Positions 10,462-26,723 of a stretch of 44,973 nucleotides of DNA are shown here, piece after piece (the stretch's first letter is position 1; every line of letters begins with the position of its first letter). The notes beneath the pieces were generated by a model that was not told the DNA's origin, did not search any database, and saw nothing but the letters and a program-made list of their open reading frames with translations. Source of the DNA: Mariprofundus sp. (GTDB lineage: Bacteria > Pseudomonadota > Zetaproteobacteria > Mariprofundales > Mariprofundaceae); NCBI GenBank assembly GCA_027019785.1, contig JALUWF010000232.1, positions 1-44,973 of the forward strand, in the 5' to 3' direction. The position numbers were made by a program, and so were the translations under genes.

Positions 10462-10556
10462 GTGGGACAATAAACGGCACTTTATAATAGTTGAGAAGCA
10501 ACAGTAAATTAACGCTGGGTTGTGGTTTTCTTTGCGTTCCTGGCGGCTTTGCGAGA
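10411..10556. repeat. Inverted pair of CGCAAAG-type repeats forming the ends of two convergent genes
   Basis: The arms at 10411-10444 and 10524-10556 match as reverse complements over about 33 bases with two mismatches (GCAAAGCCGCCAAGAGCGCAAAG type). Each arm codes the C-terminus of one convergent gene, and the loop contains both stop codons. No separate intrinsic terminator is seen, so the pair may serve as one. Confidence 0.85.
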
Positions 10557-11093
10557 GCCGTTTTTCATGGCTTCTTTTGCTTTGAGTTTTTTCAGGCCTT
10601 TGCTGATTTTTTCGCTTGGCGTCCAGTGGCGCAGCAGCATGATTTTGTTGCCGCCGCGCTGTTCAGCGCAGAGCGGGCAGGTGAGATAGGCGAGATAGAC
10701 TTCCAGCGGTTTTCGTCCTGAACTGATCAGGCGGCTCTGCATGTTGCGTAGTAGCGGGCGCATGCCGCCGATATCGCCATGATGCAGTGCGACGCGCAGG
10801 CGAAACGGATTGGGCAGGCGATGTACTCGCCGGGCCGGGCAGGTTTCATCGTCCAGTAGCCTGACAATACTACCGCGAAAAGAGGCGGATCGGGTAAGAG
10901 CCAGCCCCGGCCATGTTTCATGCAACTCCAGCGTGGCGATATCATCCATCTGGCGCTGGCGGTAGAGATCAAAAGCTATCGGCATATGCAAAAACATGGG
11001 AGCTGTCTGTTCATGTACCAGATGCCCTCCCAGGTTGATATCCTGATCATCCCAGTCGGGGAATGATTCCGGGCAACCGCAGGGCAGCGTCAT
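10509..11093 (-). CDS. Conserved-looking Cys-containing protein of unknown function
   Basis: This 194-residue soluble protein has a Cys pair near the start (LPCGCPE), an acidic DWDDQDINLGGH segment, and a CPLC motif near residue 146 after YLAYLT. The paired cysteines could bind a metal or form a redox centre. The last 16 residues (SRKAARNAKKTTTQR) are encoded by an intergenic repeat and mimic the tail of the convergent cytochrome. It overlaps the oxidase-I-like gene upstream by ATGA, so the two form an operon. I recognise no family. Confidence 0.7.
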   Translation of the reverse strand: MTLPCGCPESFPDWDDQDINLGGHLVHEQTAPMFLHMPIAFDLYRQRQMDDIATLELHETWPGLALTRSASFRGSIVRLLDDETCPARRVHRLPNPFRLRVALHHGDIGGMRPLLRNMQSRLISSGRKPLEVYLAYLTCPLCAEQRGGNKIMLLRHWTPSEKISKGLKKLKAKEAMKNGSRKAARNAKKTTTQR

Positions 11094-11599
11094 GATTTAT
11101 GGTGTTGAATATCCCGGACAGTCAACAGAACATTGGCCAGATATATCCAGAATCCGACAGCGAGTACGGAGGAGGCGATAGAGACCATCGGCCCGTAAAA
11201 ACGGTGAATGGAGGGCACGACAGATGGATCATGCAGCCAGTAGTAGCCTTCCACACTGCCGAAAATAAGCAGCAGCACATAAAAACTTCCGACGCCGAAA
11301 ATCGTCCACCAGTAGGAGTGTTCAGCCATGCGCAGCGAGTGCAGCGATCTGCCGGTTATAGCTGGTAGCATATAATAGGTGACAGCCATGCCAAGCATGG
11401 TAACGCCGCCAATGAGGTTGATATGGGCATGAGCCAGCGGATCAATCATGTGGCCGGGACCGCCGTAGGGGCTGCCGATGGAGTCCAGCCACGCCCGCAC
11501 CGGCGGCAGCACCTGCAAGACCCCTTGCAGGGTGCCGATGAAGAAGGAGATGGCTGATGTGACAAGAAATTTAATGAGATAACGGTGCTCGGATGGCAT
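11090..11599 (-). CDS. Short haem-copper oxidase subunit I-like membrane protein
   Basis: The 169-residue protein has four membrane helices. Segment PLAHAHINLIGGVTMLGMAV, followed by TYYMLPAITGR, resembles a helix pair of CcoN/NorB-type oxidase subunit I. Later spans begin at HSYWW and HRFYGPMVSI. At about a third of the length of a catalytic subunit it lacks most of the six ligand His in their usual setting. It is therefore either a distinct small family built on one oxidase module or a remnant. Good codon structure and a coupled downstream gene argue for a working gene. It is divergent from the 11721 gene. Confidence 0.7.
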   Translation of the reverse strand: MPSEHRYLIKFLVTSAISFFIGTLQGVLQVLPPVRAWLDSIGSPYGGPGHMIDPLAHAHINLIGGVTMLGMAVTYYMLPAITGRSLHSLRMAEHSYWWTIFGVGSFYVLLLIFGSVEGYYWLHDPSVVPSIHRFYGPMVSIASSVLAVGFWIYLANVLLTVRDIQHHKS

Positions 11600-11720
11600 G
11601 AGCGGAAGCTAACGGTCGTTATTGCGGATGCAAGCATTCGCTTGCATGATTTGAATTGAATAGTGCTTGACGTGTGGGCGAGGATGCAAAAGCTTCAGCG
11701 CTGCTCGTAAGGAGAAATGT

Positions 11721-12104
11721 GTGTTGAGTTCACCGGTTCTGATCGCTTCGTTGCTGACATGGTTTTTGATGTTGGCTGCATATTTGTTTCATCGTCCCCG
11801 TGTGGTGCATGTCTGTGTGATGGGACTGTGTATGTGCTATGACATTGGGGTGCCATTTCTTCTCTACTTCTCACGCAACTGGCCGCATCGCCTGATTGAT
11901 CAGGGGGGCATCTTTAATTACTTGGTGTGGATGCATGTTGTGCTCGATATTCTGCTGTTCACGTTGTATGCCATGCAGATCAGGGAAGGGTTGCGCCTTT
12001 GGCGTGGTGGAGAAGAATCGCGGGAGATACACGCACAGCAGGGTAAGGTGATTTTGGCGGTGCGATTGCTGGTTGTCGTCACCGGTGGATTGCTGGCACC
12101 ATAG
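11721..12104 (+). CDS. Four-span membrane protein
   Basis: I start at GTG 11721, six bases after AAGGAG, giving 127 residues; the track's 11667 start would run through the ribosome binding site. Spans lie near residues 6-24, 30-49, 64-85 and 107-126. Histidines sit near the membrane (FHRPRVVHVC, WMHVVLDI, REIHAQQG), somewhat like DUF420-type oxidase-associated proteins, but I cannot assign a family. It is divergent from the oxidase-I-like gene and shares about 120 bases of upstream region with it. Confidence 0.65.
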   Translation: MLSSPVLIASLLTWFLMLAAYLFHRPRVVHVCVMGLCMCYDIGVPFLLYFSRNWPHRLIDQGGIFNYLVWMHVVLDILLFTLYAMQIREGLRLWRGGEESREIHAQQGKVILAVRLLVVVTGGLLAP

Positions 12105-19819: not shown

Positions 19820-20574
19820 CGGGGTCAGGTGTGAGGTGTCAGGTGCCAGGCGTCAGGGGGCAGATGATTGCTCTGGTTGTGATATTATTCTGCGGCTCCG
19901 GGCTGGCTGATGCGGGCTGGTTTGTGCCTGAAAACCGGATTGCGTGGCAGGCCTGGCAGCGCGGCGATGATGAGGCATCGTTGCAACATTGGGATTACAG
20001 CAGCAAAGGCATCTTTGGCCGCGCCACTGTGTTGCTTAAAATGGGGCGTCTGCGTGAAGCCGAACGCGGTTTTCGACAGGCGCTGAATGCAGCGGCGGGG
20101 CTGAAGCCTGCCTATATTGCCAGCATCTGGTACAATCTTGGCAATTGTTTGTATCGGGAAGGGGCGCTGCAACCGGCGAGGCAAGCCTGGCGGCAGGCGT
20201 TGCAATATCAGCCTGGGCATGTAAAGGCGGCGCATAATCTCGCCCTGCTGGAGGGGCTGCTTAAACGCAGGCGCAAGCATGAGCCAAACAGTTCCAGTTC
20301 ACTTTCATCTGCGCCAAAGCATAAGGACAAGGGTGGAAAACAGGATCATGGCGATCAACAGCAGGCGGAGAACGGCATACCGGGTGCAGACAAGAGCGGT
20401 AAGCAAAGCAAGACCGGAGAGGGGAATGGTGGCGGTGAAGAAGAGGAGGCGGGCATGAAACAGGCAGAGCAGGCAGCGGCCAGTGTTCGCGATAGCATGG
20501 ATCTGTTTCTCCGTAATCGCATGGCGGAGAAAGCTGCGCCTGCGATGCCATCACGCCGAGGCATGCCATGGTAA
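19816..20574 (+). CDS. batC: BatC, TPR protein with repeat-like N-terminus
   Basis: ATG 19816 overlaps the batB stop and gives 252 residues; ATG 19864 (MIALVVILFCGSGLADA) gives 236 and begins directly with a signal peptide. The 48 bases between are GTCAGGTGTGAGGTGTCAGGTGCCAGG-like repeats, so the real ancestral start may be 19864. The mature protein has TPR helices (GRLREAERGFRQAL; SIWYNLGNCLYREGALQPARQAW; KAAHNLALLEGLL). A low-complexity charged region rich in K, S, E and G follows, then a final helix. This is the usual BatC plan. Confidence 0.82.
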   Translation: MTGSGVRCQVPGVRGQMIALVVILFCGSGLADAGWFVPENRIAWQAWQRGDDEASLQHWDYSSKGIFGRATVLLKMGRLREAERGFRQALNAAAGLKPAYIASIWYNLGNCLYREGALQPARQAWRQALQYQPGHVKAAHNLALLEGLLKRRRKHEPNSSSSLSSAPKHKDKGGKQDHGDQQQAENGIPGADKSGKQSKTGEGNGGGEEEEAGMKQAEQAAASVRDSMDLFLRNRMAEKAAPAMPSRRGMPW

Positions 20575-22316
20575 GGCGGCTGTTGTGCATGATGGCATGG
20601 CTGGGTTTGTCAGCCGCGTTGCCGGCTGCAGGCATGGCGGCAACATTCGCTGTGACGGTGGATCATACCATTACAAGCAGTGACCACACCTTACAGATGG
20701 TGGCGCGACTGGAGGGAAGTAGCGATAATTTTAGTCTGGATATCACGCCGCTGGAGAAGGATTTTTATGTGACTGCCGAACCCGATTTAAAACGGGCCGG
20801 GCAGTGGCGGGAAAAGCATTACCGTATTGGAGCCAAACGCCATGGGGTGCTCAAAGTGCCGGCGCTTCGTGTGACGGTTGGCGGCAAGAAGCTGTTCAGT
20901 CAGCCGTTTCAGATCACCATACTGGCTGCAGACGGCGATGTCGATGATGTGCGTTTGTGGGTGGAAGACAGGCTTGGTGGAAAACACGCATGGCTGCATC
21001 AGCAACTGACATGGCAGATGCGGGTGTTAAGTACCTATCCGTTTGCCGCCGTACCGGATGTTCAGTTTCCTTCATTTGAGGGCTTTGATGTGCGCAAGCT
21101 GGATAGTGCGGTGGCTGGCAGTGTGGTGAAGAACGGGCGCAGGCTGTTTACCATGACGTGGGTCTATTTATTGTACCCCCGGCATACGGGCGATCTGCAT
21201 ATCACACAACCTGCGGTGTCCGCACGTCTGGCACAGCATGTAAAAACACACCGTATTGCTTCCGGCAACCCCAATTTCGATGCCGGTGAAACACGGATAC
21301 ATACAAAGAAGGCGCATGGAAAACCACTGCTTATTCGAGTGCGCACATTGCCATTGGCGGCGACAGGTCTGCCTGTCGGTCACCTGGCGATTACATCGGA
21401 GCTGCCGGATGCGCATGCCTTTGCTCTGGAGCCGCTGACCTGGAATATTCACCTGAGCGGTCAGGCAATTCGGCTCGCCGACATGCCAGTGCTGTGGAAA
21501 TATTTATCGCTGGATGATGGGCTCCAGACTGTGCGTGAAAAGCCGCTTGTCACGATGGGAAGAGATGGATTACAGACGAAGGTGGATGTCCTGTATCGTC
21601 TTATATTGACACCATCGAAAGCAGGGAACTTACATATTCCGACCGTTGATATTGCATTTTTTAATCCCGATCAGGGTCGTATCGAGCATGCAATGCTGGC
21701 TTCACGCAGTGTGCAGGTGGCCCCGCCTCGCCAGTCCCAAGGCGATGAAGGTTTTGCGCTCTCCGTGTCTGGGTCAAAGCATGGGTCTGCGCGTCAACAT
21801 AGCGCAACAGTGTGGTGGAAATGGTTGGCAATCGGTATGTTTATATTATGGTCGCTGACGATTGTGGCATGGTTTTGTTGGGGGCGTGCGAACAAACCCT
21901 GCTGGCGCTTGCCAACGTGGCGTTACAGGGCGCGTGCGCCATCCATGCGTAAGTTGCTGGCTGAGCGCGATGCGACGGTGCAATTTTCCGCTATCAAGGC
22001 TGTCTCCGGTCTGCCTGCGCGTATTACGCCGCTTGGGTTGCTGGCTTTTTTTCCTGATTTACAGGATGGCGCGGGGGAAGTAGATGGCCCCGGAAATGAG
22101 GGTGGAGCGATTGCGACATGGCTTGCGGCGCTGGAGCGTGGTCGCTGGCAGCATGGCGAGCTTCCGCCGCCATTGGATGAGTTACAGGTGCGGGAGATGA
22201 TCAGGGTGATCGATGCCGCCATTCACAGCGGGGATAAAGTAGGAACGGCGGCATTTGACCCTGCCGAGTTTGGCCGTATCGGCAGTTATATGGAGCCAAC
22301 GACAGTTATGCATTGA
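20568..22316 (+). CDS. batD: BatD, periplasmic beta-rich membrane protein
   Basis: The 582-residue protein has a signal peptide (cleavage near GMA/ATF), an extended periplasmic part of repeated beta domains (about residues 27-415) and one transmembrane helix (about 420-442). A cytoplasmic helical domain of about 140 residues follows. The N-terminal domain with LEGSSDNFSLDITPLEKDF and the LTWQMRVLS ... VPDVQFPSFEGF region match the BatD/BatE oxygen-tolerance family. It starts seven bases inside batC and closes the operon. Confidence 0.88.
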   Translation: MVRRLLCMMAWLGLSAALPAAGMAATFAVTVDHTITSSDHTLQMVARLEGSSDNFSLDITPLEKDFYVTAEPDLKRAGQWREKHYRIGAKRHGVLKVPALRVTVGGKKLFSQPFQITILAADGDVDDVRLWVEDRLGGKHAWLHQQLTWQMRVLSTYPFAAVPDVQFPSFEGFDVRKLDSAVAGSVVKNGRRLFTMTWVYLLYPRHTGDLHITQPAVSARLAQHVKTHRIASGNPNFDAGETRIHTKKAHGKPLLIRVRTLPLAATGLPVGHLAITSELPDAHAFALEPLTWNIHLSGQAIRLADMPVLWKYLSLDDGLQTVREKPLVTMGRDGLQTKVDVLYRLILTPSKAGNLHIPTVDIAFFNPDQGRIEHAMLASRSVQVAPPRQSQGDEGFALSVSGSKHGSARQHSATVWWKWLAIGMFILWSLTIVAWFCWGRANKPCWRLPTWRYRARAPSMRKLLAERDATVQFSAIKAVSGLPARITPLGLLAFFPDLQDGAGEVDGPGNEGGAIATWLAALERGRWQHGELPPPLDELQVREMIRVIDAAIHSGDKVGTAAFDPAEFGRIGSYMEPTTVMH

Positions 22317-22367
22317 CATCAGCGACCTGGCCTGTAAAGATTCATGCCAGATACCTCAATTATGGGT

Positions 22368-22406
22368 ATTAATGATTAAAATTAATGATTAACGCATATG
22401 AGCGTT
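22368..22406 (+). promoter_or_regulatory. Direct repeats plus palindrome upstream of haemoglobin genes
   Basis: Two exact copies of ATTAATGATTAA (22368-22379 and 22381-22392) are 13 bases apart, and the second runs into the palindrome AACGC-ATATGA-GCGTT (22391-22406). Five bases later the GGAGG ribosome binding site begins. The layout is what an operator would look like, but I recognise no known box. Confidence 0.45.
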
Positions 22407-22421
22407 AGATGGAGGATAATA

Positions 22422-22787
22422 ATGAGTACGGTCTATGAGCAGTTAGGTGGTGAGCCAGCAATTGATGCGGCGGTGGATAATTTTTATCGCCGGGTATTGA
22501 ATGATCCCTATGTTACGCCATTTTTTGAAAATACGGATATGGAAAGACAGGCGGCCAAGCAGAAAGCTTTTTTAACCATGGTGACCGGAGGTCCGAACAA
22601 ATATACAGGTATGGACATGCGTGAAGGACACAAGCATCTGGTAAAAATGGGCCTGGATGACACCCATTTTGACCATATTGTCTGCCATTTGCGTTCCACG
22701 CTGGCTGACCTGAGTGTTCCGGCGGAGCTTATTAAAACTGTCATTGGTGTCGCGGAATCCACGCGCGCAGATGTGCTGAATCGCTAG
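22422..22787 (+). CDS. Group 1 truncated haemoglobin, soluble
   Basis: I start at ATG 22422, seven bases after GGAGG, giving 121 residues, the normal size of a trHbN/GlbN. The B-helix FYRRVLND supplies Tyr B10, the phenylalanine cluster (PFFENTDM) is present, and the proximal His F8 is in REGHKHL, with the following FDHIVCHL helix. Such proteins bind O2 and NO and often act in NO detoxification or O2 buffering. A membrane-anchored paralogue follows 11 bases later. Confidence 0.93.
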   Translation: MSTVYEQLGGEPAIDAAVDNFYRRVLNDPYVTPFFENTDMERQAAKQKAFLTMVTGGPNKYTGMDMREGHKHLVKMGLDDTHFDHIVCHLRSTLADLSVPAELIKTVIGVAESTRADVLNR

Positions 22788-22798
22788 GGGGTAATTGA

Positions 22799-23293
22799 AT
22801 GGGATTCCTTGAAATCATACTGCCGCTGATTCTGTTGGCGGCTATTCTGGTTGGTTTTATCAAGTTGACAAATCAGCCTTATGAGGCGCCAAATCCGGTT
22901 GCCAGCGGAGATGCATATAGTGGCGGAAATGAGACACTGTTTGCACAGTTGGGCGGCGCAGGCGCAGTAGATGCAGCGGTGGATATTTTTTACCGACGCG
23001 TACTGAATGATCCGTATGTCGTACCGTTCTTCGAAGGCGTGGATATGGAGAAGCAGGCAGCCAAGCAGAAGGCATTTTTGACTATGGCATTCGGCGGCCC
23101 GCATAACTATACAGGCAAGGATATGCGTGACGGGCACAGACACCTGATAAAAATGGGGCTGAATGGCACCCATTTTGATCATATCCTGATGCATATCCGC
23201 TCCACGCTGGCGGAGCTCGGCGTAGGCAAGGATTTGATTACACAGGTGATCGCTGTTGCTGAATCCACGCGTGATGACGTGCTGGATCGTTAG
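22799..23293 (+). CDS. Membrane-anchored group 1 truncated haemoglobin
   Basis: The 164-residue protein has an N-terminal transmembrane helix (about residues 4-22), a linker of about 20 residues and a complete truncated-haemoglobin domain (about 44-164), closely similar to the preceding product (DIFYRRVLNDPYVVPFFEG; DGHRHLIKMGL). Tyr B10 and His F8 are kept. The helix has a short N-terminus, and the linker carries few positive charges, so the side of the membrane is uncertain. The gene pair probably arose by tandem duplication followed by gain of an anchor. Confidence 0.9.
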   Translation: MGFLEIILPLILLAAILVGFIKLTNQPYEAPNPVASGDAYSGGNETLFAQLGGAGAVDAAVDIFYRRVLNDPYVVPFFEGVDMEKQAAKQKAFLTMAFGGPHNYTGKDMRDGHRHLIKMGLNGTHFDHILMHIRSTLAELGVGKDLITQVIAVAESTRDDVLDR

Positions 23294-23313
23294 ACGGAAT
23301 CCCGAAATCCGCA

Positions 23314-23338
23314 TAAAGGGGGCCTTTGGCCCCCTTTA
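23314..23338 (+). terminator. Hairpin terminator after the haemoglobin pair
   Basis: TAAAGGGGGCC and GGCCCCCTTTA form a perfect 11-bp stem with a TTT loop, 20 bases after the stop. Only a short AT-rich stretch follows rather than a clear T-run, so some read-through towards the reductase gene is possible. Confidence 0.7.
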
Positions 23339-23443
23339 ATATGAAATGAACAATATTAAGTGAATAATTTGAAATGAACAATTTGAAATTCAACGTGCCT
23401 GTATGGTCTTTGCTGGCGCAAGACGTACGGGAAGGGATTATAA

Positions 23444-24412
23444 ATGCCGACAATACGATTTGAAGGTAACGATTATTTTTGTGCTGAAGATGAAACGCTG
23501 CTGGATAGCCTGGAACGGCACGGGGTCATGTTGCCATCTTCCTGCAAGTCGGGCGCATGTCAGACCTGTCTGACGCGGGCGTTGGAGGGCGTGCCTCCTG
23601 TTGCTGCTCAAAAAGGCGTCAAGGACACGCTGGCCGCACAGGGCTATTTTCTGGCCTGTATGTGCAAGCCAGTGGAGGATATGGAAATTGGGCTGGCCTC
23701 GGTGTCGCCCAAATATGCGACACAGGTGCTTGCCAAAGATCAACTTAATGAGTCGGTTGTGCGCCTGCGTCTTGAATTGCCGACCGATTTTTCATACAGA
23801 GCTGGTCAGTTTATTAATGTTATCCGGGCTAGTGATGATCTGACTCGCAGCTATTCTCTGGCCAGTATTCCCGGCGATGATTTTCTGGAACTACATGTGA
23901 AACGTGTGCCGGAAGGGCGCATGAGTACCTGGTTGTTTGATGAAGTGGCTGTTGGCGATGCACTGAATTATTTCGGCCCGTCCGGAGACAGTTTTTATCT
24001 GGCCGATAAGCCTGAGCGACCACTACTGCTTGCCGGCGCAGGTACAGGGCTGGCGCCGCTCTACGGGATTTTACGTGATGCACTGGCGTGTGGGCATAGC
24101 GGCCCCGTGCATATCTTCCATGCCAGCCTGGCGACGGCCGGCTTGTATCTGATGGATGAGTTGCGCGCTCTGGCTGATGGACACGATAATGTCCATTATA
24201 CCCCGTGCGTGTTGCACGGCGAAGCGCCTGCTGGCGGCATGCAGGGGAATATCGTTGATATTCCGGCTAAAGAGCTGGGCTCATTGCGTGGTTATGGCGT
24301 GTATCTGTGTGGCGATCCGCCCATTGTGAATGCACTGCGCCAGAAAATATTTATGGCCGGCGCGTCTATGAAGGATATCCATTCCGATCCGTTTGTGTTT
24401 GCGCCGGCCTGA
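23444..24412 (+). CDS. 2Fe-2S ferredoxin / flavin oxidoreductase
   Basis: This 322-residue protein has an N-terminal plant-type [2Fe-2S] domain (CKSGACQTC about residues 34-42, fourth Cys in FLACMC). An FAD-binding barrel (RSYSLASIP, about 133-141) and an NAD(P)H-binding domain (GAGTGLAPLYG, about 197-207; CGDPPIV) follow. It resembles the reductase components of ring-hydroxylating oxygenases or methane-type monooxygenases and the reductase half of flavohaemoglobin. No oxygenase gene is nearby; the adjacent gene pair encodes truncated haemoglobins, so it may reduce those. The start is ATG 23444, with GGGA upstream. Confidence 0.88.
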   Translation: MPTIRFEGNDYFCAEDETLLDSLERHGVMLPSSCKSGACQTCLTRALEGVPPVAAQKGVKDTLAAQGYFLACMCKPVEDMEIGLASVSPKYATQVLAKDQLNESVVRLRLELPTDFSYRAGQFINVIRASDDLTRSYSLASIPGDDFLELHVKRVPEGRMSTWLFDEVAVGDALNYFGPSGDSFYLADKPERPLLLAGAGTGLAPLYGILRDALACGHSGPVHIFHASLATAGLYLMDELRALADGHDNVHYTPCVLHGEAPAGGMQGNIVDIPAKELGSLRGYGVYLCGDPPIVNALRQKIFMAGASMKDIHSDPFVFAPA

Positions 24413-24429
24413 TGCGCCCGGATATTTAA

Positions 24430-24580
24430 CCCCAAATTACACAGAGTTTCACAGAGTAAAAACACAACCGGATTGACTTTGGTTTATGAAGCGAAAAGCA
24501 AAGTCACGCAAAGGCGCAAGGAACGCAAAGAAAACGGAGCGTCAGTAATCTCCCTTGGCGGTCTTTGCGCCTTTGCGTGA
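24430..24580. repeat. CACAGAG and CGCAAAG phased repeats, inverted pair
   Basis: ACACAGAGTTTCACAGAG lies near 24440. TCACGCAAAGGCGCAAGGAACGCAAAG (24504-24530) has an inverted partner, CTTGGCGGTCTTTGCGCCTTTGCGTGA (24554-24580). They fill the 270-base space between the reductase gene and the rimP promoter. Confidence 0.75.
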
Positions 24581-24601
24581 GGTGGTTTTGATTTTAAACT
24601 G

Positions 24602-24630
24602 TTGCTTTTTTAGTGGTTGGCCTCTAATAT
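24602..24630 (+). promoter_or_regulatory. Candidate sigma-70 promoter of the rimP-nusA-infB operon
   Basis: TTGCTT (24602-24607) and TAATAT (24625-24630) are 17 bases apart. Transcription would start near 24637, just before a hairpin with a T-run, and about 50 bases before rimP. Confidence 0.6.
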
Positions 24631-24640
24631 GCGCCCTGTT

Positions 24641-24675
24641 AAAAAGTGAGCTGCGGCTCGCTTTTTTTGTTTTTT
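24641..24675 (+). terminator. Leader terminator (attenuator candidate) ahead of rimP
   Basis: AAAAAGTGAGC and GCTCGCTTTTTTT form a stem with a short loop and one G-T pair, followed by a T-rich run (CTTTTTTTGTTTTTTG). It lies between the promoter and the rimP start, so transcripts must read through it to express nusA. In E. coli the equivalent operon has leader terminators and is controlled by NusA. Confidence 0.65.
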
Positions 24676-24685
24676 GAAGGTGGTT

Positions 24686-25183
24686 ATGGCTTTGGAATCT
24701 GTTATTGCATCACTGCTGCAGCCGATTACTGACGATATGGGTGTGGATATTCTGAAGATCAGCATTGGTGGCGGTGGTCGCAGCCAGCTGGTCAGGGTGA
24801 TAGTTGATTGCGCTGGCGGTATTGGTTCGGACAGGCTGGAGCGGATCAGTCGCGGACTGGCATTGCAACTGGATGCGGAAGATCTGATCAAGGGCGCGTT
24901 TCGTCTGGAAGTGACTTCGCCGGGGCTGGATTGGCCATTGCAAACCGTAGCTGATTTCAGACGTTACAAGAATGAGTGGATTAACGTATCGTTTCTGGAT
25001 GGCAGCAGTCAGGAAGGCAGAAATCTTGGCCTTGTTGATGCAGAAGATGGATCTGGCTTCAGGTTGTTGGTGCCTGGGCGTAAAGCCGCTGGTGATAAAG
25101 AAATAGTGGTTGATATGGTTGATGTATGCAAAGTAGTACGGGCGATCAACTGGCAAGAAGTAAGCAGGAAAAGTAAAAAATAG
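24686..25183 (+). CDS. rimP: Ribosome maturation factor RimP
   Basis: I start at ATG 24686 (MALESV), behind AAGGTGG; the track uses TTG 24674. The 165-residue protein has the RimP N-terminal domain, with the conserved VRVIVDCAGGI and LERISRGLALQLD segments, FRLEVTSPGLDWPL at about residues 73-86, and the C-terminal SH3-like domain (EWINVSFLDG). RimP assists 30S subunit maturation. It is the first gene of the translation operon and precedes nusA, as is usual. Confidence 0.92.
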   Translation: MALESVIASLLQPITDDMGVDILKISIGGGGRSQLVRVIVDCAGGIGSDRLERISRGLALQLDAEDLIKGAFRLEVTSPGLDWPLQTVADFRRYKNEWINVSFLDGSSQEGRNLGLVDAEDGSGFRLLVPGRKAAGDKEIVVDMVDVCKVVRAINWQEVSRKSKK

Positions 25184-25253
25184 TGTAACAAATCAGTGGC
25201 GATCTGAGTAGTTGCAGGCGTATAGGAAGAATCGGAGTAGTGAGAATGCAGTC

Positions 25254-26723
25254 ATGAATGTAGAGATATTACAGGTAGCGGATGCAGTTGCGCGTGAGAA
25301 ATCAGTGGAGCGTGAGTTGGTGCTGGAAGCGATGGAGCAGGCACTGAAGACAGCTGCGCGCAGAACTTATCCGGGCAAAAATATAGTGGCGGAGATTGAT
25401 CGCACCACGGGAGAGATTCGTCTGTTCCATGTGCGTACGGTGGTCGAGGAAGTGGAAGAAGAGGTTAATGACCTGACCATTGAACAGGGCCGGGAACTCG
25501 ATGGGGATGCTGAAATAGGCAGTGAATTTCGTGAATCGTTGCCGCCGATTCCGCTGGGGCGTATTGAAGCCCAGACTGCCAAGCAGGTGATTAACCAGAA
25601 AATTCGTGAAGCCGAGCGGGATCGTGTGATCGCTGAATACGAACCGCGCGTGGGCGAGCTGATTACCGGCATCGTCAAGCGGGTGGAGCGGGGCAACGTC
25701 TATGTTGACCTGGGGCGTGGCGAAGCGGTGATGTATCGCGAGGATCTGCTGCCGCGCGAAACCTTCCGTCAGGGAGATCGTGTGCGCGCCTATTTGAGAG
25801 AAGTGCGCAATCAATCCAAGGGCCCGCTGGTATTTATTTCGCGTTCGGATGCCGGCATGGTATTGCGTCTGTTTGAGCAGGAGGTGCCGGAAGTTCAGGA
25901 TGGTACGGTATCCATTCAGGCCATCGCCCGTGATCCGGGGTCACGCAGCAAAATTGCTGTGATTTCCACAGATTCGACCGTAGATCCGGTTGGTGCCTGT
26001 GTCGGCATGCGTGGTGCGCGCGTGCAGGCCGTGGTGAACGAACTGCATGGTGAAAAAATTGATATCATCGAGTGGACGGAAGATCCGGCAGCCTTTGTTG
26101 TCAATGCATTGGCGCCGGCCGAGATTGAGCGTGTACTGGTTGATGAGTCGAGCAATACCATAGAAGTGGCGGTGAGTGAAGAAAACCTGGCCATTGCCAT
26201 TGGCCGCCGGGGCCAGAATGTGCGTCTGGCCTCCGAGCTATCCGGCTGGAATATCGAATTGATGAGCAGTGGTGAAGAGAAAGAACGGCGTCAGGAGGAA
26301 GTAGTCAAGGCTCGTCGCATCTTCCAGCAGGGGCTGGATGTGGATGAGGATTTTGCCTCGGTACTGGTGGCTGAAGGGTTCTATAGTCTGGAAGAGCTGG
26401 CCTATTGTGATGCAGCGGATATTGCTGCCATTGAAGGGCTGGACGGTGAAGTGGCTGGCGAACTGCAGAATCGCGCTCGCAATGCGCTGCTGGATCAGGC
26501 CTTGCAGAAGAGTGAGTCGGAAGGCGAAGCTGCGGTGTCGCTACTCGATTTGGCCGGCATGACGCGTGAAATTGCCGAGCAACTGGCGGCTCTGGAGATG
26601 GTCAGTGTCGATGCGCTGGCAGATGCTGGCGTGGATGAGCTGGAAAATATTGAAGGCTTGAGCCGGGAGCAGGCGGAAGTATTGATTATTGCTGCCCGTG
26701 AAGCCAGCGGTTGGTTTGACTGA
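25254..26723 (+). CDS. nusA: Transcription termination/antitermination factor NusA
   Basis: I start at ATG 25254 (MNVEILQ), the conserved NusA start, giving 489 residues (E. coli 495). In order: N-terminal RNA-polymerase-binding domain, S1 domain ([21 protein letters not shown], about 132-200), KH1 and KH2 ([29 protein letters not shown]), and two C-terminal helix-hairpin-helix acidic repeats ([28 protein letters not shown]). It controls pausing and termination and may regulate its own operon through the leader terminator. Confidence 0.97.

Follow-up and report, generated by a model that had tools for sequence, protein, structure and literature searches.

Truncated haemoglobins are widespread, but for most of them neither the native reductant nor the role is settled. 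What, then, are two such globins, one of them carrying a transmembrane helix, doing ahead of a flavin and iron-sulfur reductase in Mariprofundus, a marine iron oxidiser of the Zetaproteobacteria? We analyzed the 44,973-nucleotide contig JALUWF010000232.1 (hereafter the window), in which sHb, mHb and the reductase gene form a three-gene set at 22422-24412. A first-pass annotation had described two tandem group 1 haemoglobins followed by an NAD(P)H-FAD-[2Fe-2S] reductase, and both coordinates and Pfam domains bear this out. The features of the locus are as follows:

22313-22318, + strand: candidate sHb promoter -35 element (TTGACA), read from the sequence; it shares bases with the stop codon of the BatD-like gene upstream
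22339-22357, + strand: candidate NsrR operator, GATTCAT-gccag-ATACCTC, with 12/14 specified bases of gATGyAT-N5-ATrCATc
22422-22787, + strand: sHb, a soluble group 1 truncated haemoglobin of 121 aa (Pfam PF01152, Bac_globin, E 3.2e-21)
22799-23293, + strand: mHb, a group 1 truncated haemoglobin of 164 aa with an N-terminal membrane anchor (PF01152 at residues 46-161, E 4e-18)
22805-22870, + strand: single transmembrane helix of mHb, residues 3-24 (hydropathy and charge bias in 26 orthologues, AlphaFold)
23314-23338, + strand: strong hairpin AAAGGGGGCC-TTT-GGCCCCCTTT between mHb and the reductase gene (fold z -3.8; terminator-like, with a weak U-tract)
23444-24412, + strand: reductase of 322 aa with [2Fe-2S] ferredoxin, FAD and NAD(P)H domains (Pfam Fer2, FAD_binding_6 and NAD_binding_1)

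The two globin genes are 11 nt apart, and 150 nt separate mHb from the reductase gene. Upstream of the set lies a Bat/MoxR operon (DUF58, VWA, TPR and BatD proteins) and downstream rimP-nusA-infB (RimP, NusA, YlxR and IF-2). Since these adjoining genes are Bat/MoxR and translation genes, the set stands outside any respiratory operon, and the earlier placement of it next to a respiratory chain had to be abandoned. An Rfam search gave no match within 20000-26000.

Both globins belong to group 1 (trHbN), as judged from the Bac_globin domain, His F8, Tyr B10 and group 1 proteins as closest relatives, and the nearest solved structures for sHb are cyanobacterial and algal group 1 trHbs. With pocket positions named by comparison with known group 1 globins, Tyr B10, Gln E7, Gln E11 and His F8 are invariant in 50 sequences, and Lys E10 is found in 49 of these 50. 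As far as sequence can tell, this heme pocket fits group 1 globins competent for NO dioxygenation. Family, fold (TM-score ~0.8-0.9, target-normalised), Tyr B10, Gln E11 and His F8 are shared with Mycobacterium tuberculosis HbN and Chlamydomonas THB1, and the conserved Lys E10 recalls the lysine that serves as distal heme ligand in THB1, a globin active as an NO dioxygenase (PMC4304232). Unlike mHb, HbN and THB1 have no transmembrane helix. To our knowledge, neither has a dedicated adjoining [2Fe-2S] flavoreductase. Covalent heme attachment of the kind seen in cyanobacterial GlbN was considered and discarded, the C-terminal histidine region being unconserved in the alignment (by eye). Two histidines four residues apart in the helix G region (mHb alignment positions 128 and 132) are present in 31/31 zetaproteobacterial globins, soluble and tethered, and position 128 is Ala or Thr in 19/19 globins from other groups.

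In the reductase, the Fer2 cysteines 34, 39, 42 and 72 and the R135-x-Y-S motif are invariant among 35 homologues, and the AlphaFold model (pLDDT 94) matches GcoB, BenC, CarAd and T4moF, followed by the FNR domains of flavohaemoglobins. Its Fer2-FAD-NAD(P)H domain order and fold are those of oxygenase reductases such as BenC, MmoC, T4moF and GcoB; unlike these, it falls below every NCBIfam equivalog cut-off, showed no oxygenase among the neighbours scanned and has a globin as its partner gene. An oxygenase was rejected as the partner: no linked oxygenase component was found in the window or beside solo copies of the reductase, so that the first-pass statement that no oxygenase was in sight holds for the neighbours scanned, and a pairing with oxygenases elsewhere, which would have spoken against a split flavohaemoglobin, was looked for and not found. 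A paralogous reductase clade (~45% identity) does occur without globins, even in Mariprofundus genomes lacking the globin family of the set, which indicates that the reductase fold also serves another partner. This solo paralogue is retained without the set's globin family in the Mariprofundaceae genomes G001, G008, G012, G016, G020, G021 and G030, and the solo loci examined have as neighbours housekeeping genes such as hemC and dnaX, or glycosyltransferases. An apparent globin-reductase fusion in genome G037 (an open frame of 616) was dismissed as artefactual: it results from an upstream frame that is open, and the two genes lie in different frames.

Across 61 genomes (the window's own, those of its relatives and a few others of the phylum at large), reductase and globins occur together in most Mariprofundales, and the synteny of the three genes, conserved through this order, rules out a chance arrangement. 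The closest named relative is Mariprofundus sp. 131-447 (reductase 84% identical), and the other near ones are likewise Mariprofundus or Zetaproteobacteria. In a 399-genome sample of the phylum, a globin match adjoins 35 of the 39 top-scoring reductases on the same contig, and none of a lower-scoring band of ~18 reductases (the solo paralogue, from some Mariprofundaceae) has an adjoining globin. A scan of 84,980 species, one genome each, left 80 loci, and in 75/80 loci the gene immediately 5' of the reductase encodes a group 1 globin. These come from Zeta-, Gamma- and Betaproteobacteria, Acidobacteriota, Myxococcota, Armatimonadota and Rhodothermota (names as recorded, many being metagenome bins), and outside the Zetaproteobacteria the gap between globin and reductase is mostly <40 nt. 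Among the five loci without an upstream globin, L106 and L140 have ~1 kb or less of upstream sequence, and L110, L116 and L126 lie among housekeeping genes with no adjoining oxygenase.

The promoter region points to NO as the signal. Scored against the NsrR consensus (taken from PMC1274295), the candidate operator is the sole site of at least 12/14 in the 45-kb window (p ~0.007, dinucleotide shuffles), and it lies 64 nt 5' of sHb and 20 nt 3' of the TTGACA box, which is itself kept upstream of sHb in most relatives. Palindromes of at least 11/14 precede the globin genes in 30/39 non-zetaproteobacterial loci (1.4 in shuffles, max 5) and in 13/33 zetaproteobacterial ones (1.9 in shuffles, max 6), and half-sites of at least 10/11 are found in 16/33 zetaproteobacterial upstream regions, vs. 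1.1 in shuffles. An NsrR-like repressor gene is present in 53/80 loci, and 12 of 20 enlarged loci have a divergent Rrf2 gene 5' of a globin gene. The top equivalog for the NsrR-like Rrf2 protein, in the relatives and on contig C4 of the window's genome, is NsrR (NF008240) at 133 bits, which is below a 182-bit cut-off so strict that just 1/14 control genomes reached it. In the window's genome this gene is on a contig other than the set's, beside a third globin; in the sister genome G007 the triad is also apart from nsrR, and a perfect 11/11 half-site precedes sHb. In M. ferrooxydans PV-1, nsrR, sHb, mHb and the reductase gene share a single locus (L085).

The arrangement has a described counterpart. 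In Legionella, glbN-lpg2536 was the sole predicted NsrR target, and an NO oxidation similar to that of Hmp was proposed for it (Rodionov et al., 2005; PMC1274295), a case later taken up again in support of an electron-donor role of ferredoxin reductases (Gardner, 2012; PMC3820574). As in Legionella pneumophila, where a group 1 (cyano)globin gene is followed by a ferredoxin-reductase gene under NsrR control in a genome without Hmp, the locus here has a group 1 globin gene adjoining a ferredoxin-type flavoreductase gene and a predicted NsrR operator 5' of the globin (the 12/14 site, enriched in relatives). The two are likened by description, and no tethered second globin is mentioned for Legionella. 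Given the 2005 prediction, the soluble pair is of a known kind, here found to be widespread.

Other NO-handling genes were looked for in the window's draft genome (94.6% complete, which bounds the absences that follow). Since no 3/3 globin was detected in it, neither was a flavohaemoglobin (Hmp), and no hybrid cluster protein was found in the same draft. The sole full-length COX1-family protein found is a cbb3-type subunit, and accordingly no NorB (the NO-reductase-like oxidase subunit) was seen; NnrS is present. Because 3/3 globins are rare in the Mariprofundus-genus genomes searched (1/23), the globin-reductase module may be the main NO defence of Mariprofundus.

Taken together, the adjoining globins, the NsrR-like genes and operators and the lack of an oxygenase beside the reductase support the idea, already put forward in the first-pass annotation, of a flavohaemoglobin split into parts, and we consider it probable that the set encodes an NsrR-controlled two-component NO dioxygenase. 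As in Hmp, which is under NsrR control in many bacteria, a globin heme is combined with an FNR-type FAD/NAD(P)H reductase; unlike Hmp, whose single chain has a 3/3 globin but lacks a [2Fe-2S] domain, the set has separate genes, 2/2 globins that are partly membrane-bound, and an extra ferredoxin domain, and it is therefore not a flavohaemoglobin in the strict sense of a 3/3 globin fused to its reductase. NsrR would repress sHb-mHb as long as NO is absent, and damage of its Fe-S cluster by NO would open the promoter. The ferrous globin would then bind O2 in the Tyr B10/Gln E7/Gln E11 pocket, and the O2-bound form would react with NO, yielding nitrate and leaving a ferric globin, which the reductase would re-reduce by single electrons, from NAD(P)H through FAD and the [2Fe-2S] ferredoxin domain. 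sHb would act in the cytosol and mHb likewise on the inner membrane, at its cytoplasmic side. It is there that NO and O2 are expected to partition and that the respiratory chain would be exposed.

Several observations count against an NO dioxygenase, namely the globin-free reductase paralogues, the location of the NsrR gene on another contig, a half-site at the window's promoter that is weaker (8/11) than in many relatives, and the 150-nt gap and hairpin, owing to which strict co-transcription of the reductase with the globins can only be presumed. If the paralogues and the similarity to BenC, MmoC and GcoB types were given most weight, the reductase would serve another electron acceptor, an oxygenase or some unknown protein elsewhere, and the globins would adjoin it incidentally; with a globin directly upstream in nearly all homologues from several phyla, and no oxygenase among the scanned neighbours of the solo copies, we regard this as unlikely. 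Other NO-controlled chemistry, i.e., nitrite reduction, peroxidase activity or stoichiometric NO trapping, would be in keeping with the several in vitro activities of truncated globins (PMC4720485) and with the multicopper and cytochrome c genes, including a weak nitrite-reductase match, that some relatives carry beside the set. A dedicated NAD(P)H reductase, however, fits repeated turnover, and the pocket matches the families of the NO-dioxygenase-active THB1 and HbN, which makes such chemistry very unlikely as the main function.

The first-pass annotation had left the choice between NO handling and O2 delivery to an oxidase, and NsrR-type control favours the former. As an O2 carrier or buffer, mHb would supply the cbb3-type terminal oxidase at low O2, and the reductase would merely keep the globins ferrous. 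The hosts are indeed iron oxidisers of the Mariprofundus group, a cbb3-type oxidase is encoded in the window's genome, and membrane tethering would suit the task; moreover, a 2013 comparative study of freshwater iron oxidisers noted truncated haemoglobins and preferred a terminal-oxidase role for trHbN, suggested for that of Sideroxydans ES-1 (PMC3770913). The NsrR-like genes and operators nevertheless indicate NO rather than O2, no oxidase genes adjoin or travel with the set, and a soluble-only version is found in myxobacteria, acidobacteria and methanotrophs. We thus think O2 delivery quite improbable, and the NsrR signature, as read from sequence, argues against a terminal-oxidase role for this family.

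That one globin has its own transmembrane anchor was confirmed by hydropathy (2.3-3.2 for the helix across 26 orthologues) and by the AlphaFold model of mHb (pLDDT 86), in which helix 3-24 and a disordered linker, within an N-terminal extension of 45 residues, precede a group 1 fold whose top PDB match is Chlamydomonas THB1. The 26 mHb sequences have no K or R ahead of the helix and 57 within 15 residues behind it, and under the positive-inside rule this bias predicts an N-out/C-in topology, with the globin domain in the cytoplasm on the same side as the reductase. A globin with such a helix occurs in 27/80 loci, every one of them zetaproteobacterial, and the loci of other groups have soluble globins only; the membrane-tethered copy thus seems to be a special addition of the Zetaproteobacteria. 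Apparent transmembrane segments in L127, L148, L160 and L161 were dropped, as the likely start codon is downstream of them. Two relatives encode a TM-Hb-Hb tandem fusion (genome G022, contig C275, 7668-8534, and genome G029, contig C14, 147761-148624), and in G029 the reductase and the fused tandem globin are on separate contigs. A globin-domain tree (121 columns) groups mHb with sHb inside sub-lineages, and a single duplication was rejected as the sole origin of mHb, which is not one clade and for which the starred branches force at least two changes. This pattern would suggest that tandem copies underwent gene conversion or that mHb arose repeatedly.

Between the globins and the reductase, many zetaproteobacterial relatives have a similar hairpin in the same position, which is followed by a full T-run in L088, L089 and L108; in the window the U-tract is poor, which leaves termination at 23314-23338 uncertain. 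This intergenic hairpin could lower the reductase relative to the globins. It is tempting to speculate, although tentatively, that Zetaproteobacteria run an NO dioxygenase in two compartments, with a cytosolic and a membrane-docked globin sharing one diffusible reductase, in which the docked copy would act as a shield that destroys NO as it enters through the membrane and so protects the cbb3-type oxidase, and in which the hairpin would keep the globin in excess of the reductase.

We found no description of a tethered truncated globin in the open-access literature, nor one there of the tandem fusions or of the intergenic hairpin; as far as open-access papers go, mHb is without precedent as a truncated globin that has a genetically encoded single-pass anchor and lies beside its own reductase, and it makes NO detoxification at the membrane directly testable. 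More broadly, because reductases of this family accompany group 1 globins in several phyla, often together with an NO-sensing repressor, they offer a concrete native electron donor for these globins to test.

Some further observations concern the surroundings of the set. On the minus strand, a 176-codon open frame at 22784-23314 runs antisense to mHb; some relatives have a counterpart of it, and it is most likely a coding-bias shadow. In L066, L067, L070 and L076 (genomes G033, G026, G013 and G006), the set adjoins genes for c-type cytochromes and for multicopper oxidases weakly similar to NirK. Within the window, 10509-12104 encodes a 169-aa COX1-like membrane fragment and two small adjoining genes, and three relatives (L069, L070 and L076) have this three-gene group close to their globin locus.
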